DNA from: Lacticaseibacillus casei DSM 20011 = JCM 1134 = ATCC 393
GTDB lineage: Bacteria > Bacillota > Bacilli > Lactobacillales > Lactobacillaceae
NCBI RefSeq assembly: GCF_000829055.1
Contig: NZ_AP012544.1
Location: 2,604,001 to 2,668,000, forward strand
Length of the DNA stretch: 64,000 bases
Direction of reading: 5' to 3'
Shown here: positions 3,359 through 17,200 of the stretch, in pieces
Numbering within the stretch: position 1 is the stretch's first letter
Layout: each line of letters begins with the position of its first letter
The notes under the pieces: model-generated
What the model saw: only the letters and a program-made list of their open reading frames with translations
What the model was told of the DNA's origin: nothing
Databases searched by the model: none
Made by a program: the position numbers and the translations under genes

Positions 3359-3415
3359 TTCCCTGACGAATCGTGTTGCTTAGGCGGTAAACTTTACAAA
3401 ATGACAAAGTAACCA

Positions 3416-3446
3416 TCACATTTTCGTCATACTTTGCCAGTAGTAT
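3416..3446 (+). promoter_or_regulatory. Promoter with 11-bp direct repeat for small RNA A
   Basis: A -10 hexamer TAGTAT (3441-3446) is preceded, exactly 8 nt upstream, by TCACAT (3416-3421) and TCATAC (3427-3432), direct repeats with an 11-bp period. No good -35 is present. The same arrangement with the same spacing occurs at 6749-6780. Phased hexamer repeats replacing a -35 are characteristic of PhoB/OmpR-family response-regulator promoters. The identity of the activator is unknown. Confidence 0.5.
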
Positions 3447-3452
3447 TGGCAC

Positions 3453-3592
3453 CATAGAAATGAGCCACCCACTCATTCCTAAACCCCAACCTAATTTTCA
3501 TTTTTCTCCTCCAAAGAAAAAGATGATTGGCCCCCATCCGATCATCACCCCAAAAAAGGCTCGCTGCGTTTTGGCAGCGAGCCTTTTGTTGT
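3453..3592 (+). ncRNA. Candidate regulatory small RNA A (anti-Shine-Dalgarno, C-rich)
   Basis: Predicted transcript of about 138 nt between the -10 and a terminator. In order: a 5' hairpin AATGAG/CTCATT with a C-rich loop (3459-3477); a single-stranded stretch with ACCCCAACC; CTCCTCC at 3506-3512, complementary to GGAGGAG ribosome sites; a second hairpin GATGATTGG/CCGATCATC (3522-3545) with a CCCCCAT loop; and the terminator at 3556-3585. A related unit at 6787-6926 keeps the motifs, and its second stem has a different sequence but still pairs. An AUG within the 5' hairpin lacks a ribosome site, so coding is unlikely. By analogy with streptococcal csRNAs it should block translation of target mRNAs. 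Confidence 0.6.
3556..3592. terminator. Bidirectional terminator (small RNA A and recA)
   Basis: Perfect 12-bp stem AAGGCTCGCTGC / GCAGCGAGCCTT with a short loop. It is followed by TTTTGTTG on the plus strand and by a run of T residues on the minus strand, so it can end both the small RNA and the convergent recA transcript. Confidence 0.85.
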
Positions 3593-3628
3593 GGACCGAT
3601 AACTTTTCGAAAATAATCAACGTGATGC

Positions 3629-4822
3629 TTAAACTAACCGATCAACGCCAAAGCTTGATGGATCATCTTTCTTGTCATCCTGCTTTTCATCGGCCTCAGC
3701 TGGCTTTTCAGTCTTGGCTTCGTCAGTTGACTTGACGTCTTTTTTAGCATCCTTCTTGTCGTCGTCCGTTTCTTCAGGCTTCTTAGGTGCGGCCTGTTCA
3801 CGGATTTTGGCTTCGATTTCCTTAGAAATTTCCGGATGTTCATCCAGATAATGGGAGGCGTTCACAAGTCCTTGGCCTAAACGCTCTTTGCCGTAGTTAT
3901 ACCAGGATCCTGACTTGGTGATGACATCAAACTTACTGTCTTTTTCCGTCACTAAGTTGATCATGTCGGTGTTGTGCTCAATCCCATGGCCAAATGACAT
4001 CGTGGTTTCAACCGTCTTAAATGGTGGTGCCACCTTGTTTTTGGTAACCTTCAGCTTGCTGGCAAAACCGATCACATCTTTGCCATCTTTGACTTGCTGG
4101 CCTTTTTTAACCTCAATACGAACCGAGGCATAGAACTTCAAAGCGCGTCCACCCGGTGTGACTTCCGGATTGCCAAACATCACGCCGACTTTTTCCCGCA
4201 ACTGATTGATAAAGATGACCAATGTATTGGTATTGTTAATCGACCCGGCCATTTTACGCAGTGCTTGCGACATTAACCGCGCTTGTAAGCCGACATGACT
4301 GTCACCAATGGCGCCTTCGATTTCAGCCTTGGGAACCAAAGCGGCAACTGAATCAATCACGACAATTTCCACGGCGGCAGATTCGATCAGCATTTCGGCA
4401 ATTTCCAATCCCTGTTCGCCCGAGTTTGGCTGGGATAACAGAAGGTCGTCAATGTTAACCCCCAATTCAGCCGCATACTTTGGATCCATCGCGTTTTCGG
4501 CATCAATATAAGCTGCCTTGCCGCCGGACTTTTGCAACTCTGCGATCGTCTGCAGTGCAATCGTGGTTTTCCCGGTACTTTCAGGACCATAGATTTCCAC
4601 AATCCGGCCGCGTGGCAACCCGCCGACACCAAGCGCCAGGTCCAGTGAAAGAATGCCGGTCGAAACAACATCAACCTTCAGTTCCGGCCGATCACCCATT
4701 TTCATCACGGCGCCTTCACCAAACGCCTTCTTGATTTTCTGCAGCGCCTTTTCTAATTCGGTTTCGCGATCTGTGGTATCAGATTTTGTATTTGCATTCT
4801 TTGTGGTCGTTTTCTTCGCCAT
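3629..4822 (-). CDS. recA: Recombinase A
   Basis: ATP-dependent strand-exchange protein of homologous recombination and co-protease for LexA in the SOS response. Walker [10 protein letters not shown] lies at residues 79-87, followed by the Walker B strand [12 protein letters not shown], the L2 region [15 protein letters not shown] and [12 protein letters not shown]. The common EHALDP segment reads ENAMDP here. The 397-residue length exceeds the usual ~350 because of a Lys/Asp/Glu-rich tail from about residue 335. The start at 4822 follows AAGGAGA; an upstream ATG at 4864 has no such site. It stands alone, without the cinA and rny neighbours common in Firmicutes. A LexA-type box overlaps its promoter. 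Confidence 0.95.
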
Positions 4823-4871
4823 ACTTGTCTCCTTAATTACGCGTCTATAACGCTTAAAATACACTAGTTAC

Positions 4872-4900
4872 ATTATCGAACATGCGTTTGTTTTTTGCAA
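4872..4900 (-). promoter_or_regulatory. recA promoter with LexA/DinR (SOS) box
   Basis: On the minus strand, -35 TTGCAA (4895-4900) and -10 GATAAT (4872-4877) are 17 bp apart. CGAACATGCGTTTG at 4877-4890 matches the Gram-positive SOS consensus CGAAC-N4-GTTCG with one mismatch and covers the spacer and the edge of the -10, the expected position for LexA repression. Confidence 0.75.
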
Positions 4901-5005
4901 GCTTTTCGTTCAACAAAACGGATTTTTCTGCGTGCCAAATTGGTTTCCCTTCTATTTTACCTGAAGCAACCGGGCGATTGGGAAAAATCTGCTGTTATTG
5001 ATGGG

Positions 5006-5236
5006 CTGAAAAGCGTTTGCTGGGGCAGGAGTCTGCGTGTAAGGGCCTCAAGACACAAATGGCCAAAGCCTGGCCATTTGAGTTTAGCGGCCACGAGTTC
5101 TCTGCTGCGTCTCGGAAACGCGCTCACCGGCGCAGAAACCTGCGTGTAAGGACCTTGGGCGCAATGGCAAAAACCGCCATCACGCCCAAGGCCACTTACA
5201 CTCCGGTTTCTGAACGCGCCAGTTCGCGCTCTGTTG
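5006..5236. repeat. Palindromic intergenic element, family 1 (two tandem copies)
   Basis: Non-coding space upstream of the DUF554 gene filled by two long imperfect palindromes. The clear copy (about 5114-5236) has outer arms ACGCGCTCACCGGCGCAGAA / TTCTGAACGCGCCAGTTCGC, inner arms GTGTAAGGACC / GGCCACTTACAC, and a central stem CTTGGGCGCAATGGC / GCCATCACGCCCAAG. A diverged copy (about 5006-5106) has the central stem CAAATGGCC / GGCCATTTG. Related copies lie at 6931-7050 and 35109-35226. Arms are shared between copies whereas the central stems differ in sequence but still pair. Confidence 0.8.
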
Positions 5237-5297
5237 AAAACATGCTATGATGGTTCGGTCAGTGATGGCAATCATACACACAAGGTGGAGAAAAATA

Positions 5298-5996
5298 ATG
5301 ATGTTCATGGGTTCCTTTGTCAACGGCTTAACCATTATCGGCGGCGGTCTGCTTGGGCTGGTTTTGCACAATATTAGCGACAACGCCAAGGACACGATTA
5401 CCAAAAGTCTGGGACTTGGCACGTTTGCGCTAGGCATTCAGATGGCGTTGCAGACCAAGAGCTTCATTGTCATCATCATTAGCCTGTTTCTTGGTGGCCT
5501 GCTGGGTGAGTGGCTGCATATTGAAGACGGCATGAATCATCTTGGTCTCAAGTTGCAGGAGCGCTTTGCAAAAGGCAACAGTCACTTTGCAGAAGGTTTC
5601 GTCACTGCTACTTTAATCGCCGTCATCGGTGCCATGAGTATTCTCGGTGCGATTCAGGCCGGCGTGTCCGGTGATAACGCAACACTTTACACAAAAGCGG
5701 TCATGGACGGTTTCATGGCCATCATGATGACCGCTTCACTTGGCATCGGCGTTATGTTTTCCGCTATCCCCGTGGTCTTGTATCAAGGTACGATCACGCT
5801 GTTAGCCAGTTTCTTAGTCCAGTTCATCCCCAAAACCTTGTTGGCGACGTCCTTGCGCGAAATCGGCGCAATTGGCGGTTTGATGATTCTAGGAATTGGT
5901 TTGAACCTCATGGACATCACCAAGATTCGAATCTCCAATCTTTTACCGGGATTACTCGTTCTCCTGGCGATTCTAACAGGTCAGTATTTTTTATAA
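5298..5996 (+). CDS. DUF554 family membrane protein
   Basis: Integral membrane protein of 232 residues with six or seven hydrophobic segments, matching the DUF554 (YdfK/YqgA-like) family in length and in the features GSFVNGLTIIGGGLLGL at the N-terminus, GLLGEWLHIEDG and VTATLIAVIGAMSILGAIQAG. Members are predicted transporters without an established substrate. The start at 5298 is favoured by GGTGGAG 7 nt upstream; further in-frame ATGs occur at 5301 and 5307. It is a single gene ended by the hairpin at 6008-6038. Function unknown. Confidence 0.85.
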   Translation: MMFMGSFVNGLTIIGGGLLGLVLHNISDNAKDTITKSLGLGTFALGIQMALQTKSFIVIIISLFLGGLLGEWLHIEDGMNHLGLKLQERFAKGNSHFAEGFVTATLIAVIGAMSILGAIQAGVSGDNATLYTKAVMDGFMAIMMTASLGIGVMFSAIPVVLYQGTITLLASFLVQFIPKTLLATSLREIGAIGGLMILGIGLNLMDITKIRISNLLPGLLVLLAILTGQYFL

Positions 5997-6007
5997 ATTA
6001 GGTATCT

Positions 6008-6038
6008 AAAAAGCAGGCCGCGCCTTGACCTGCTTTTT
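6008..6038 (+). terminator. Terminator after the DUF554 gene
   Basis: Stem AAAAAGCAGG / CCTGCTTTTT with an 11-nt loop, 12 nt after the stop codon. The A and T tails allow it to act in both directions, also for the convergent gene at 6076. Confidence 0.85.
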
Positions 6039-6075
6039 AATAGTCTGTTACCTATTACTATTTTTGCGGCTCCGA

Positions 6076-6549
6076 TCAGAAATTAGGAATCAATCCTTGC
6101 CGGCCGCTTTGAAAACGCCGATAAACCACTTTACAATGCCAATCACGGATTTTGGTCAAAATGCGCGAATTCGCATCGTGATACCAATAGCGCAGATCGT
6201 CTTTAATGTACAAACGATTCAACCATGCATGATCATGCCGCAAGAATGTGAAGCTCTCAAGTAAATCCTGCTCGCGCCAGACATCTGGCAACAGAAACTG
6301 GCTTCGCGTAAAGCGTTTTAACTGCCTTCCCGAATAATAAACCCGTTCAATCCGGCCGATGAAAAATGCGGTATGCCCTTTACCGACGTATGGCGCCATT
6401 GGTGCGACAATCAGTCCACCGCGCAGCCGCTCAAACCAGTCAGTTTGCGGACTTACCTTAATTGCATGCGTAACATCTTTGGGTAACCGGAAGTCCAAAA
6501 CCAACCCATCCGGACGGCGAACCCGTACAACGATATGTTGCTTCTTCAT
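6076..6549 (-). CDS. Hypothetical protein (157 aa)
   Basis: I do not recognise this protein. It is predicted cytosolic, basic and rich in Arg, His and Trp, without membrane segments or signal peptide. It opens MKKQHIVVRVRRPDGLVLDF and contains an aromatic stretch DDLRYWYHDANSRILTKI. GTGGGGTGG precedes the ATG by a few bases. It lies convergent to the DUF554 gene and shares the terminator at 6008-6038. No neighbouring gene suggests a function. Confidence 0.6.
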   Translation of the reverse strand: MKKQHIVVRVRRPDGLVLDFRLPKDVTHAIKVSPQTDWFERLRGGLIVAPMAPYVGKGHTAFFIGRIERVYYSGRQLKRFTRSQFLLPDVWREQDLLESFTFLRHDHAWLNRLYIKDDLRYWYHDANSRILTKIRDWHCKVVYRRFQSGRQGLIPNF

Positions 6550-6748
6550 GTTACCACCCCACTTACCTTGGCCCCTAAGGCGACTTGTACTGCTGAAAAA
6601 AGTTTAACACGAAATGTTCGGATTTGCATAAAGAACGTTTGTTTCGTTAATTAACCCTCCGCCAAACTAACCAACCTCGGCGACGCAAGCGGTGAATTCA
6701 AATGTGAACACAATCACCACAAAGATATAATAGAATATTGCATTTGCC

Positions 6749-6780
6749 TTCACATTTCATTCACACCCTGTCTGTAGTAT
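6749..6780 (+). promoter_or_regulatory. Promoter with 11-bp direct repeat for small RNA B
   Basis: TTCACA (6749-6754) and TTCACA (6760-6765) form an exact direct repeat with an 11-bp period, 8-9 nt before the -10 TAGTAT (6775-6780). The layout is the same as at 3416-3446. TTCACA-N5-TTCACA resembles PhoP-type boxes of Bacillus. The bases from 6550 to 6748 contain nothing else I can identify. Confidence 0.55.
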
Positions 6781-6786
6781 AAGAAA

Positions 6787-6926
6787 CATAGAAATGAGCT
6801 ACCCACTCATTCCTAAAACCCCAACCCAACTTTTTCATTTTTACTCCTCCAAAGTAGAAATCGTCGATCGTCCCCCAAACGATCAGACACCCCCAGCAGG
6901 CCGCCCACCCAGCGGTCTGCTTTTTT
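6787..6926 (+). ncRNA. Candidate regulatory small RNA B (paralogue of small RNA A)
   Basis: Predicted transcript of about 140 nt. It shares the 5' hairpin AATGAG/CTCATT (6793-6811), the segment CCTAAAACCCCAACC, TTTTTCATTTTTACTCCTCC ending at 6850 (anti-Shine-Dalgarno ACTCCTCC at 6843-6850), and a second hairpin with a CCCCCA loop. Here the second stem is GATCGT/ACGATC extended by GTC/GAC (6863-6889), a different sequence from small RNA A but still paired. A CACCCCC single strand leads into the terminator stem GCAGGCCGC/GCGGTCTGC (6896-6920) and T6 (6921-6926). No ribosome site or open frame supports coding. Confidence 0.62.
6896..6926 (+). terminator. Intrinsic terminator of small RNA B
   Basis: Stem GCAGGCCGC / GCGGTCTGC (one G-T pair), 7-nt loop, then six T residues at 6921-6926. 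Confidence 0.85.
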
Positions 6927-6930
6927 GGTG

Positions 6931-7050
6931 TGAGCGTGAGCTGGCGCGGTTAGAAGCCGGAGTGTAAGTGGCCTCGAAACCAAATGGCTGGGTTTTGGCC
7001 ATTTGGTTTCGAGGTCCTTACATGTAGGCTTCTGCGCCAGCGAACGCGTT
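6931..7050. repeat. Palindromic intergenic element, family 1
   Basis: A 120-bp imperfect palindrome: outer arms GAGCTGGCGCGGTTAGAAGC / GCTTCTGCGCCAGCGAACGC, inner GTGTAAGTGGCC / GGTCCTTACATG, and central stem TCGAAACCAAATGGC / GCCATTTGGTTTCGA. It lies directly after the terminator of small RNA B. The remaining space to 7182 holds two diverged direct repeats of about 60 bp (from 7040 and from 7108), each starting GCGAACGCGTTATAGAA and ending in an AATAGAAC segment; no gene is visible there. Confidence 0.8.
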
Positions 7051-7177
7051 ATAGAAAGCGGAAATAAATTGGCTCTTTGCCTCCAATAGAACGATCTTCA
7101 GCCAAGGCTGGCGAACGCGTTATAGAACACGAAAGCCCTCCCCTCACATTTGCCTCAAATAGAACATCCTCTAACGC

Positions 7178-11252: not shown

Positions 11253-14200
11253 TTGGACTCGAAAGTACATTACAAACGCTACAAAAGCGGTAAGTTCTGG
11301 ATAACCGCACTGATCTCAGTCTCGTTTGGCATCATCGGCAGCTTAGCCGTTCCACAGCTTTGCGAAGCCGTTCCCGTTTACGCAACTTCAATAACAGATG
11401 TTTCAATTAAGGTTGGACCTAATGAGTTTTCCCAGTATTTTAAACTCAGCGGTTCAGCCTCTTTTTATCCCAAAGATTCAAAGACGCAAGTGCAACTCAC
11501 GCCTAACTTACCCGATCGAACAGGGAGTGTTGCCTTAAACACCAAGATCGATATGAGCCAGAGTTTCACACTCAAGGGCCGGTTGTATCTGGGCGATGAC
11601 CCAGACGGTGCTGATGGGGTGGCTTTTCGATTCGCCGATACGAAACCCGGTGTGCTTGGTGATGCCGGAAATGCTTTTGGCTTAGGCGGGCTAAAAAACG
11701 CTTTTGGGGTTAAATTCGATGTGTATTATAACGGCGTTCGGACAGAGGGAGCTTTGCCAGATGTTTATCGCGCCAACCAAATGAACGTTATCTACACTGA
11801 CGACGCAAAAGGTAACCAAGTAGCTGGCGTTGACGGTGGCGAAGGCGTGAGTCACGCTAAAATTCAGGGCGCAAACGGCCAGTACTCCGAGTTGATCGTC
11901 AATTACGATGGTGACAACCGGATCATGACCGTCACCGGAAGCGGTGCAACGATCAAATTCAATGCGGCACCCTATATCAAAAACGATCAACTGTCAATGT
12001 TCATCTCCGGGTCAACCGGCGGCAAAATGAATCAACATGCGTTCGACTTTGAATCGTTTAGCTTTACCCCGGGATTAGACACGGTGAAAGAAAACTTGAA
12101 AAACAATCTGACCCCCACGATCACCGCACCTAAAAACGCTATTAATCAAGATCCCACATTGACGAATGCGCAACGCAAGCAATTGTGCGATGCGATTGAT
12201 CAGGCGCTTCAGAACGGAAAATCCGCGATTGACCAAGCAACTAAAACCGGTGATGCCATTGCGGCTTTCGATACAGCAAAAGCCAAAATTGACGACATTC
12301 ACAAATCCGGTCCGCCACTGGCCGATCAAAAGGCGACACAAAAGCAGGCGTTAAAAGCAAAACGCGATCAGATTGCCGATGTGAGTTATAAAGATTATGC
12401 CTTAACGATGGCTGAAACGAAGCAACAAACGCTCGCTGCTGATCAGGCCTTGGCAGATGCAACGGCGGCGGTTGATGCGGCCAGTGATGCAAACGGCATT
12501 AGTCAGGCTGCCGAAAACGGCTTGAAAAAGATTGCTGCGGCCTACCAACCAGGCGTGCCTTTAGCTGACCAAAAAGCCGCCCAAAAGAACGCACTCGCCA
12601 ATGCAGCAACCAGTGCTAAGCAAACCATTCAAAAAGACCCGACTTTGACAACTGCACAGAGGAAAAAGCAATTCGGCCTCGTTGACAATGCCGTGACAGA
12701 TGGGGAAACCGCCATTGATGCAGCCAATACTGCTGATAAAATCAACAAGGTTCTTGCAGCTGGTAAAATCAGCGTCAATCAAGTGCATCAACCCGGAGTT
12801 CCCTTAGCTGACCAAAAAGCCGCAAAGAAGCAAGCATTGAAAACCAAGCGTGATGAAATTGCCGACACTAGCACCAAAGATCTGACACTAACAATGCAAG
12901 AAACGAACGATCAAATTGCCCAAGCCGACAAGGCACTATCAGGGGCTAATGCAGCCATTGATGCAGCAGCCGAGGCAGATATCGTCAATCAAGCGGCAGC
13001 AGACGGGCTACAAAAGATTACCGACGCTTATCAACCGGGAGCTTCTTTAGCTGACCAAAAAGCGGCACAGAAAAAGGCATTGAAAGCCGAACGCGACCGA
13101 ATTGCGGACGTGAGTTATAGGGATTATGCGCTAACGCTTGCTGAAACGAAGCAACAAACCAGCATTGCCGATCAGGCGCTAGCCAATGCCAGTGCGGCCG
13201 TTGATGCAGCAGCAAGCGCAGATGCGATCAACAAAGCGGCCGCAAGTGGTTTGAAGCAAATCGCCGCTGCCTATCAACCCGGAGTTCCCTTAGCTGACCA
13301 AAAAGTTGCGAAAAAGCAAGCCTTGGCAAATACAGCTGACAAAGCTAAGCAATTCATTCAAAGTGATCGAACTTTGACAACTGCTGAAAAGAAGATCCAA
13401 CTTGCTAGCGTTGATACAGTGTTAAAAGATGGCGAAGCTGCCATTGATACAGCCATTACTGCTGACAAAATCAACAAAGCTGAAGCAACTAGTGCGTCTG
13501 CCATTTTAAATGTTCATCAACGCGGAACCGACCTCGCCGATCAAAAGGCCGCTCAGAAACAAGCATTGAAAACCGAGCGCGATAAGATTGCGGACATCAG
13601 TTTTAAAGATTTGACGTTAACGATGGCTGAAACCACTCACCAAACGGATACGGCCGATCAGGCGTTAGCAGCTGCCGAAACGGCCATTGATGCTGCCACT
13701 GATGCGGATGGCATCGTGCAAGCAGCCGATGATGGCCTACAAAAAATCACGGCCGCCTACCAACCCGGCATCCCGTTAGCTGATCAAAGAGCCGCACAGA
13801 AAAAAATGCTGGCAACCGAAGCCGCCAACGCTAAGCAAACGATTCAAGCCGATCCGACTTTGACAACCGCAGAAAAGCAAACGCAACTTGCGAGCGTTGA
13901 TACCGCTTTGACAGATGGCGAAGCGAGCATTGACGCTGTTGGCAATGCCGACAAGATCAACAAAGCTGCGGCAGCCGCCAAAGACAAGATCAACAAGATC
14001 CCGCAATCCGGGGTCGCCGTTGCCGATCAAAAAGCAGCGCAGAAAAAGGCGTTGCAAGCCAAGCACGATAAAATCACTGATGTCATTAATCAGGATCTGA
14101 CACTGACAAGTGAGGCCCAGAAGCACCAGATTAGCCAAGCTGATCAGGCTTTTTCTGATGCCACGGCGGCTATCGATACGGCTGCCGATGCAGATACCAT

Positions 14201-17200
14201 CAACCAAGCTACCGAAGATGGTTTAAAAGCAATTGCTGCGACTTATCACCCGGGAACGCCATTAGCTGACCAAAAAGTTGCGCAGAAACAAGCACTTAAA
14301 GCTGAACGCGATCGAATCGCCGAGGTCAGCAACAAGGACCTCTCACTAACCATGACTGAAACGAATCACCAAATCGGTATCGCCGATCAAGCATTGACCG
14401 ATGCCAGTACAATCGTTGATGCCGCGGCGAGTGCAGACGCAATCAACCAAGCAACCGCAGACGGCCTCAAAAAAATTGCCGCCGCATATCAACCCGGCGT
14501 TCCGTTAACCGACCAAAAAGCCGCGCAAAAAAAGGCCTTGGCAAATGATGCCGCCAATATTAAGCAAGCCATTCAAGACGATCCAACGTTGACAACCACG
14601 CAAAAGGCCCAGCAAGTCGCCAACGTTGACACCGCCTTGGCTGATAGTGAAACTGCGGTTGATACAGCGAAAACAGCTGATGCCATCAACAAGGCCGTGG
14701 CCGCTGGCAAAACGTCTATCAGCAACGCGCACCAACTCGGCATCGCCATCGCCGATCAAAAAGCTGCGCAGAAGCAGGCGTTGACTTCCAAACACGCTGA
14801 AATCACTGATGTTATCAACAAAGATCTCACGTTAACGAACAAAGAAATGAAGCGGCAAATAAGCCAAGCTGATCAGATGCTAACGGATGCCAAAGCAGCA
14901 ATTGATGCTGCTGCCGATGCAGATGCCATTAACCAAGCGGCTGATAACGGGCTCAAAAAGATCACTTCAACTCATCAATCAGGCACACCGCTGGCTGATC
15001 AAAAAGTCGCGCAAAAGAAAGTGTAGGCCGATGCAGCCGATAAGACCAAACAAAGCCTTCAAGGTGATCCGACCTTGACAACGGCGCAAAAGCAACAACA
15101 ACTTACTAGCCTCGACGCTGCCCTAGCTACTGGCGAAGCCAACATTGACGCAGCAACTAGCGCTGACGCCATCAACACAGCTGCAGCGGCGGGTCAGGCC
15201 AACATCACCAACGCCCACCAATCCGGAGCTGCCATTGCCGCTCAGCAAGCCCGCCAAAAACAGGCCGTACAAGCCAAACAAGCTGCCGTGATCGATCGCA
15301 TCATCCATTACCCAACATTGCCGGCCACGGAAAAGAAAACTCAGACTGCGCTTGTTGATCAGGCTCTTTTAACTGGTAAACAAGCCATTGATGCGGCGGT
15401 GACCGCTGATGCGATTCAGCAAGCCGCCACCGTCAGTCAAGACAACATCGACAAAGCCCATCAATCCGGAATGGCAATCGATGATCAGAAGGCGGCGCAA
15501 AAGGCCCAGCTCACTGCGCAATCCAAGCAAGTTGAACAAGCCATCAAAGATACGCCTACTTTGACCACTGCCGAAAAATCTACCCAACTTGACGCAGTCG
15601 CCAAAGCCTTGACGACCGGGCTGAACAATATCGATGCTGCTTCCACCGCCGACCAGATCAACGCCGCGACCGCGACTGGCAAAACCAACATCGCAGCAGC
15701 GTATCAAGTCGGCCTTCCTTTGAATACCCAAAAAGGCAACAAAAAGAAACAGCTTAACAACGCCGTCACCCAAGCCGAGCAAACCATCCAAGGTGACGTG
15801 ACTTTGACGTCCGCTGAAAAGCAACACCAGCTCGATAAGGTTGCCCGTACCTTCAAAACGGTTAGCGATGCAATCGATAACGCTAAGACCGCGGATGCTA
15901 TCAATGCGGCGTTTGATGCCGGTAAAGTCGATATTGGAAAAGTCCACCAACTCGGCACACCTTTAGCTGATCAAAAAGATGCCCAAAAACAGGCACTGGC
16001 CAATGAGCTCGCTAAGATTCAGCAAAATATTCAAGCCGACCCAACCTTAACCACTACCGACAAGCAGCAGCAAAGCGATCATGCAGAGGCAGCCAAAACG
16101 GCAGCTGCAAATGCCATTAACAATGCCAAGTCAGCCGACACCATCAACGCCGCGTTTGACGCTGGCAAAGCCAACCTGGCCACTGCTCACCAACCCGGCG
16201 CCGCAATTGCCGCTCAGCAAGCAGCCAAAAAGCAGGCACTGAATCAGGAACTCGCCAAGATCAAGCAAGCTATTCAGCACGACGCGTCCTTGACTACTGC
16301 CGAAAAGCAGCAGCAAGCCGCCGCAGCTGATAACGCAGGTCAAACGGCGGCAACAACGCTCGATACTGCCAAAACAGCTGACGCAATCAGTGCCGCGTTC
16401 AACGCTGGCCAAGCCGCCATTAAAAAGACGTATCACCCGGGCAAAGCTATGGCTGATCAGAAAACAGCGCAAAAGCAGGCGTTAGATAACGTAACCGCTA
16501 AAATCATCCAAGCGATCCAAGGCGACGCCACATTAACGACTGCCCAAAAACAACGACAAGTCGATGCCGCGACCAAGGCAGCACAAACAACGGTCGCAGC
16601 CATTGACACGGCGAAATCCGCTGATGATATCAAGGCAGCGCTCGTCGCAGGCCAAGTCACCGTCGCCAACGTTCATCAACCCGGCAGTCCTATCGCAGCG
16701 CAACAGACTACTCGGAAACAAGCGCTTGACCATGAAGCCGCCACCACCCATCAAGCCATTCAGCATGATGCCACACTAACGGCTGCTGAAAAGAACCGGC
16801 AATTCGCTGCAGTTACCACGGCCAATAAAACTGCCCAAGTCGCCATTGATGCTGCCAAAACCGCTGACGACATTAACGCCGCGTTTAACACTGGCAAGAC
16901 AGCCATTCACCAAGCGCATCAAGCCGGCAAACCTATCGCTGACCAGAAAACCACCCGCAAGCACTCACTAGCCAGTGAGGTTCTTAAAGTTACCCAAACC
17001 ATTCAAAGCGACCCAACCTTAACGGCGACCGAGAAAAGCCAGCAAGCCAATGCCGCTGCCAAAGCCGGAGAAACGGCCAAAACGACCGTTGAGGCGGCCA
17101 AAACTGCTGATGACATCAATACCGCATTTGCTGCTGGCAAAATGGCCATCGCCAAGACTCATCAACCTGGCACCGCCATCGCCGATCAACAAGCCGCGCA

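Follow-up and report, generated by a model that had tools for sequence, protein, structure and literature searches.

What kind of gene is carried twice, in the intergenic stretches at positions 3453-3592 and 6787-6926, on the plus strand of a 64,000-nucleotide segment of the Lacticaseibacillus casei DSM 20011 genome (contig NZ_AP012544.1, positions 2,604,001 to 2,668,000; hereafter the window)? An initial annotation, made from the letters, had read the two units as paralogous small RNAs (sRNAs) resembling the CiaR-dependent csRNAs of streptococci. Both units were found at these coordinates; they are mutually alignable, and each has its own promoter and terminator and a length of about 136-140 nt (copy 1) or about 135-140 nt (copy 2). 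Judged from sequence, they are probably genes of a redundant, two-component-controlled family of translation-blocking sRNAs, which is built to a design like that of the csRNAs and the LhrC RNAs of Listeria and is a member of neither. The family itself is real and widespread and of a known functional kind; its promoter box and architecture differ from the known ones.

Folding gave -46.9 kcal/mol (z -8.4) for copy 1 and -30.3 kcal/mol (z -7.3) for copy 2, and 0 of 200 shuffles were as stable as the native units. The fold consists of three hairpins and a terminator. Hairpin 1 (3455-3481 in copy 1, 6789-6815 in copy 2) bears the loop CCACCCA (3465-3471) or CTACCCA (6799-6805) and is followed by a C-rich linker (3482-3501; 6816-6838). 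Hairpin 2 (3500-3521; 6837-6861) is an A/U-rich stem that displays CCTCCAA, the core of CTCCTCC, as an anti-Shine-Dalgarno (anti-SD) loop (3508-3514; 6846-6852). Hairpin 3 (3522-3546; 6863-6888) has the loop CCCCCAT (3531-3537) in copy 1 and CCCCCAA (6872-6878) in copy 2. The terminator hairpin and its T-run lie at 3553-3589 and, with a C-rich hairpin loop, at 6895-6926; a separate terminator scan lists that of copy 2 only, that of copy 1 coming from folding. All elements of the initial annotation were recovered, namely the 5' hairpin, the C-rich stretch, CTCCTCC, the CCCCCA-loop hairpin with altered arms and the terminator hairpins. Its placing of CTCCTCC in an unpaired stretch needs amendment: the motif is present, but CCTCCAA is the loop of hairpin 2, which had gone undescribed. 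Among 70 Lacticaseibacillus members of the family, this loop reads CCTCCAA in 42 and CCTCCA in 7; a stricter in-loop criterion scored 4/70, since the first T is paired. In the first 115 nt of these transcripts, C accounts for 47.6% of the unpaired bases and G for 2.7%.

The covariation that had been read from two copies as a sign of a folded RNA is present family-wide. Hairpin 3 occurs in 49/70 members in 41 distinct versions, with 97.9% of its positions paired; 1000 shuffles of the 3' arms averaged 48.5% and never exceeded 60.4%. Because MAFFT could not align hairpin 3, these hairpins were counted by folding, which itself selected them, and the percentage should be read with that caution. For hairpins 1 and 2, two-sided changes were found at 7 of 18 pairs, compared with 3.7 in shuffles (5/500 shuffles reach 7), and 89.2% of the cells are paired vs 84.7% in shuffled and 45.8-54.8% in slid registers.

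The most constant stretch of the sRNAs, CTTTTTCAT-TTTTA-CTCCTCC, is the reverse complement of a whole translation start region, comprising the Shine-Dalgarno sequence, AUG and two lysine codons; the anti-SD motif recognized earlier in CTCCTCC is part of this antisense. In copy 2 its anti-start segment CTTTTTCAT (6830-6838) ends the C-rich linker. This segment is antisense to AUG plus two lysine codons in 57/70 members, matching AAA-AAG in 46, AAA-AAA in 7 and AAG-AAA in 4. Ten further members, window copy 1 included, match lysine and another residue, and 3 have no such segment.

Pairing with mRNAs was predicted for 511 genes in 864 kb of the L. casei genome, where genes and signal-peptide classes were called by simple rules of our own (50 predicted signal-peptide genes, 326 cytosolic). 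Two lysine codons follow the start in 12/50 signal-peptide genes and 3/326 cytosolic ones (Fisher p 2.9e-9). The mean predicted pairing of copy 2 is -16.0 kcal/mol with signal-peptide vs -13.9 with cytosolic genes (p 1.8e-4), that of copy 1 is -15.1 vs -13.3 (p 8e-4), and that of the anti-start part alone is -6.2 vs -4.6 (p 2.3e-4). The class difference was matched by 0/40 shuffled queries for each of these three and by 17/40 for the anti-SD part. An earlier first half of the sample (288 genes) had given p 0.011.

The promoters of the members share the consensus KTCACA-N5-KTCACA-N9-TANTAT. In the 70 promoters this takes the form [GTA]TCA[CT]A-N5-[TG]TCACA, then 9 nt and a TANTAT-like -10 element; a further, weaker box, TTNACA-like, precedes the first half-site by 22 bp. 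The pattern used to collect the 70 prescribed A, [CT] and [AG] in half-site one, CA.A in half-site two, a 9-nt spacing and TA in the -10 element, so that conservation is judged from the remaining positions only. About a dozen members that did not match the pattern, L. casei copy 4 among them, are excluded from the 70. In the window, all on the plus strand, copy 1 has the direct repeat ATCACA-N5-GTCATA (3415-3431) and, 22 bp upstream of its first half-site, the weak third box TTTACA (3393-3398, from column counts over the 70 promoters), and copy 2 has TTCACA-N5-TTCACA (6749-6765). Both repeats are proposed response-regulator sites, of the direct-repeat type seen in two-component-controlled multicopy anti-SD sRNAs, and each precedes a putative -10 element TAGTAT (3441-3446; 6775-6780).

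This composite promoter ties the sRNAs to htrA. With up to 2 mismatches it has 10 matches in the L. casei genome (reversed control, 3): the four sRNAs, the htrA promoter with 1 mismatch and five others with 2 mismatches each. A site scoring at least 12 lies within 300 nt upstream of htrA at 28 of the 30 loci fetched (28/29 of the genus, the thirtieth coming from another genus), compared with 1/508 genes of the L. casei genome. The two loci lacking a scored site are that of the other genus (G031) and one (G008) whose site shows just beyond the scored stretch. On this evidence, a single response-regulator regulon appears to comprise both the sRNAs and HtrA.

HtrA regulators of Gram-positive bacteria are given by genus as CiaRH, CssRS, CroRS, LisRK or PieRS (PMC12826053). 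The part of PMC9426447 that gives the CroR motif has TTTATTAA, which is unlike the sRNA box, and CroR was rejected. A PieR-like candidate, whose best NCBIfam match is PieR at 290 bits (under the cut-off of 450), is present in 30/30 genomes of the genus, in 79/80 sRNA-positive and in 211/317 sRNA-negative genomes of the family Lactobacillaceae. A second candidate, whose best PDB matches are led by MtrA and PrrA and include ArlR and CovR, is present in 78/80 and 293/317, respectively; a protein search with it returned generic names only among the best 120 of 7092. These counts are uncorrected for kinship and cover two of the OmpR-family regulators of the L. casei genome. As both candidates are common in sRNA-negative genomes, co-occurrence does not choose between them.

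The family was matched throughout the Lacticaseibacillus genomes searched and extends into other genera. With copy 1 as the blastn query, 34 of 60 genomes matched at E<=0.01: all 30 of the genus (L. casei counted), with 1-6 matches per genome, and 4/30 outside it, all at E >0.001. These four and a weak second match within the genus (L078) look like antisense gene start regions and not sRNAs. Exact matches to the promoter and 5' end in named genomes (21 stretches) fell in Lacticaseibacillus species only, and a 145-base query found no plasmid copies. The covariance-model search of Lactobacillaceae proposed in the initial annotation, with a model of the 5' half of the sRNA and 397 genomes of 40 genera, was positive at E<=0.01 in 80 genomes and 12 genera, where matches near E 0.01 that were not inspected individually may include false ones. 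All 26 genus members drawn were positive, with 1-6 copies per genome (median 4), a copy number in keeping with the multicopy anti-SD class; L. casei has 4. At 28 places in other genera (20 stretches), inspected by eye, the hairpin set with C-rich loops was found in nearly all; both promoter boxes accompany 21, and 2 have them at a different spacing. One such genome carries four copies spaced 217 bp.

Could the units then be true csRNAs, that is, CiaRH regulon members transferred to or inherited by lactobacilli? The csRNAs are likewise multicopy, combine anti-SD with anti-AUG sequence, end in a terminator and share a regulon with htrA, and in their promoters a pair of half-sites with an 11-bp period stands about 10 nt before the -10 element (PMC3091779); the period and a similar distance recur here. 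A Cia cluster is listed for L. casei (PMC3040137), and an L. casei regulator has the recognition helix VVEVYMSNLRKKL, close to the CiaR helix VVEVYVSKVRKKL. However, the likely CiaR ortholog (E<=1e-50) is found in just 11 of 30 sRNA-carrying genomes of the genus, and the 70 promoters have KTCACA-N5-KTCACA, not the CiaR box NTTAAG-N5-TTTAAG (PMC3091779). The lactobacillar anti-SD also differs in standing in a hairpin loop of a three-hairpin RNA, adjoined by a conserved anti-start segment. CiaR was rejected as the regulator, which is probably another protein, and csRNA membership with it; this origin is very improbable. The csRNA likeness first noticed thus holds for the design and not for CiaR dependence. 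As to LhrC1-5 of Listeria (RF00616), these are multicopy and G-poor, with three C-rich contact sites and an anti-SD beside antisense of AUG-Lys (PMC4132741); they pair with lapB from -21 to +7 (PMC3091779, PMC4132741) and are induced by envelope stress via a two-component system also linked to htrA (PMC12826053). The lactobacillar loops CCACCCA/CTACCCA, CCTCCAA and CCCCCA are C-rich candidate contact loops of the same type. Sequence and hairpin order are unlike, and LhrC promoters have a LisR element upstream of -53 and no 11-bp TTCACA repeat adjoining the -10 element; they do not score with the lactobacillar pattern. RF00616 had no match in the L. casei genome, nor in the subregion at E<=5, and was positive in 25/198 genomes, all of one other family. 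LhrC membership was rejected for want of an RF00616 match and for the promoter layout. No Rfam family reached its gathering level in the window (the subregion gave 8 sub-threshold matches, the best being Thr_leader at 28.8 bits vs 55, on the terminator region), and a known Rfam family was rejected on that ground. A cis-acting leader was ruled out as well, each unit terminating in a hairpin and meeting a convergent gene. On the minus strand, GGAGGAG, a spacer and ATGAAAAAG... read as a perfect-looking start site, which would suit a small protein gene there. Yet the frames behind it run to 3-98 codons in 67/70 members and, counted from the sRNA 5' end, their starts occupy all three phases (26, 26, 15), and the stems, promoter and terminator belong to the plus strand, leaving such a gene scarcely credible. 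No reading frame is kept on either strand among the 70 members and plus-strand starts are absent from 15 of them; small proteins on both strands were ruled out by these data.

The remaining alternatives accept the RNA and dispute its task. If any strong Shine-Dalgarno sequence is a partner for the CCUCC loops and the start-codon segment only adds affinity, the sRNAs would be a general translational brake with no choice of exported proteins. The anti-SD part indeed pairs better with gene starts of all classes than shuffles do (-9.35 vs -7.18 kcal/mol) and favours none of them, and the top single partners are of mixed class; the anti-start segment, though, ranks with the least variable parts and is predicted to pair more strongly with signal-peptide genes. 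A general brake is unlikely, if the least unlikely of the rivals. If the RNA, instead of pairing with mRNAs, served mainly to titrate an RNA-binding protein with a preference for C-rich loops, its multiple loops of this kind and its multicopy genes would fit, but the conserved antisense of the entire start region would be left unneeded; we regard this as improbable. The preferred reading, translation-blocking sRNAs under two-component control, has several results to its disadvantage. Window copy 1, whose linker ends in the anti-start segment TTTTCAT, is antisense to AUG-Lys-Ile rather than AUG-Lys-Lys. Signal-peptide genes are not preferred by the anti-SD part alone (p 0.42) and supply only 4 of the top 30 single partners, and polytopic membrane proteins (-15.1) also outpair cytosolic ones. 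The full 26-nt antisense, allowing up to 3 mismatches, matches the L. casei genome 3 times, each time in the sRNA genes themselves. No promoter boxes at training-set level were seen near 10 PF00486 response-regulator loci in an autoregulation check, and 5 of the 28 inspected distant members have no promoter boxes. Start-site blocking can be proposed with good confidence. Owing to the mixed best partners, the membrane-protein pairing and the lack of a near-perfect target, a preference for exported-protein mRNAs is proposed with less.

Translation blocking by these sRNAs might proceed as follows. Envelope or secretion stress would activate an OmpR-family response regulator, which would bind the TTCACA-type direct repeats immediately upstream of the -10 element and jointly switch on several sRNA genes and htrA, encoding a surface protease/chaperone. 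The sRNAs, if so expressed, would expose C-rich, almost G-free loops; the CCUCC loop would dock onto the Shine-Dalgarno sequence of an mRNA, the weak A/U stem would then open, and pairing would spread over AUG as far as codons 2-3 and keep ribosomes from binding. Signal-peptide mRNAs would be favoured because the extension is mostly antisense to AUG-Lys-Lys, and the export load would drop while HtrA removes misfolded protein. It is conceivable, though rather less assured than the sRNA reading itself, that this amounts to a two-armed envelope-stress regulon, in which HtrA is joined by sRNAs that read the signal-peptide Lys-Lys as a zip code and lower the exported proteome as a class. The sigma-E response of E. 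coli likewise joins a protease with sRNAs, MicA and RybB, that reduce envelope protein synthesis within one envelope-stress pathway; these depend on a sigma factor and Hfq, and the RNAs are unrelated.

If this holds, the Lactobacillaceae, which include food and probiotic bacteria and reportedly lack Hfq (PMC3091779, PMC4132741), would gain a defined post-transcriptional stress system. A simple rule would follow, under which the opening codons of signal peptides let an sRNA address mRNAs of one functional class. Streptococci and Listeria already combine htrA with multicopy anti-SD sRNAs, and the lactobacillar family would be the third example; as its promoter box is different, convergence vs regulator replacement would become testable.

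Sequencing of L. casei BL23 yielded 307 putative sRNAs, 86 of them intergenic and some Northern-blotted (PMC8220740), and 208 candidates are reported for L. casei Zhang (PMC8249650). The initial annotation knew of no description in lactobacilli; the literature searches made here found none for the family, and single members may stand in the tables of PMC8220740.

Copy 1 is flanked by a same-strand aminotransferase gene and by convergent recA, copy 2 by a divergent DUF7679 gene and a convergent phosphotransferase system (PTS) gene. In one other genus, an sRNA locus is adjoined by a crtN-like gene.

Some members depart from the plan of the window copies. Subtypes in L050, L068, L060 and L065 have extra hairpins that separate the anti-start segment from the anti-SD, or serial anti-start/anti-SD modules, as if modules had been shuffled. 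A second anti-SD stretch, CCTTACTCCTT or CCCTACTCCTTT, follows hairpin 3 and precedes the terminator in L165, L166, L173 and some genus members (L008 and L010, for example); neither window copy has it. The second units of L173 and L175, as well as L178, L180 (unit 14385) and L183, keep the anti-start/anti-SD hairpin while having no TTCACA boxes, which suggests copies under different control.

Elsewhere in the window, the intergenic stretches at 4990-5215 and 6940-7060 are palindromic and share the words GTGTAAGGGCCTC... and ...GAGGCCACTTACACTCC; a similar one lies upstream of htrA in L103, and they look like a repeated element of the L. casei genome. An open frame of 1257 amino acids at 11253-15026, with many similar repeats (ADQKAAQKQALKAERD...), probably encodes a long repetitive surface protein.

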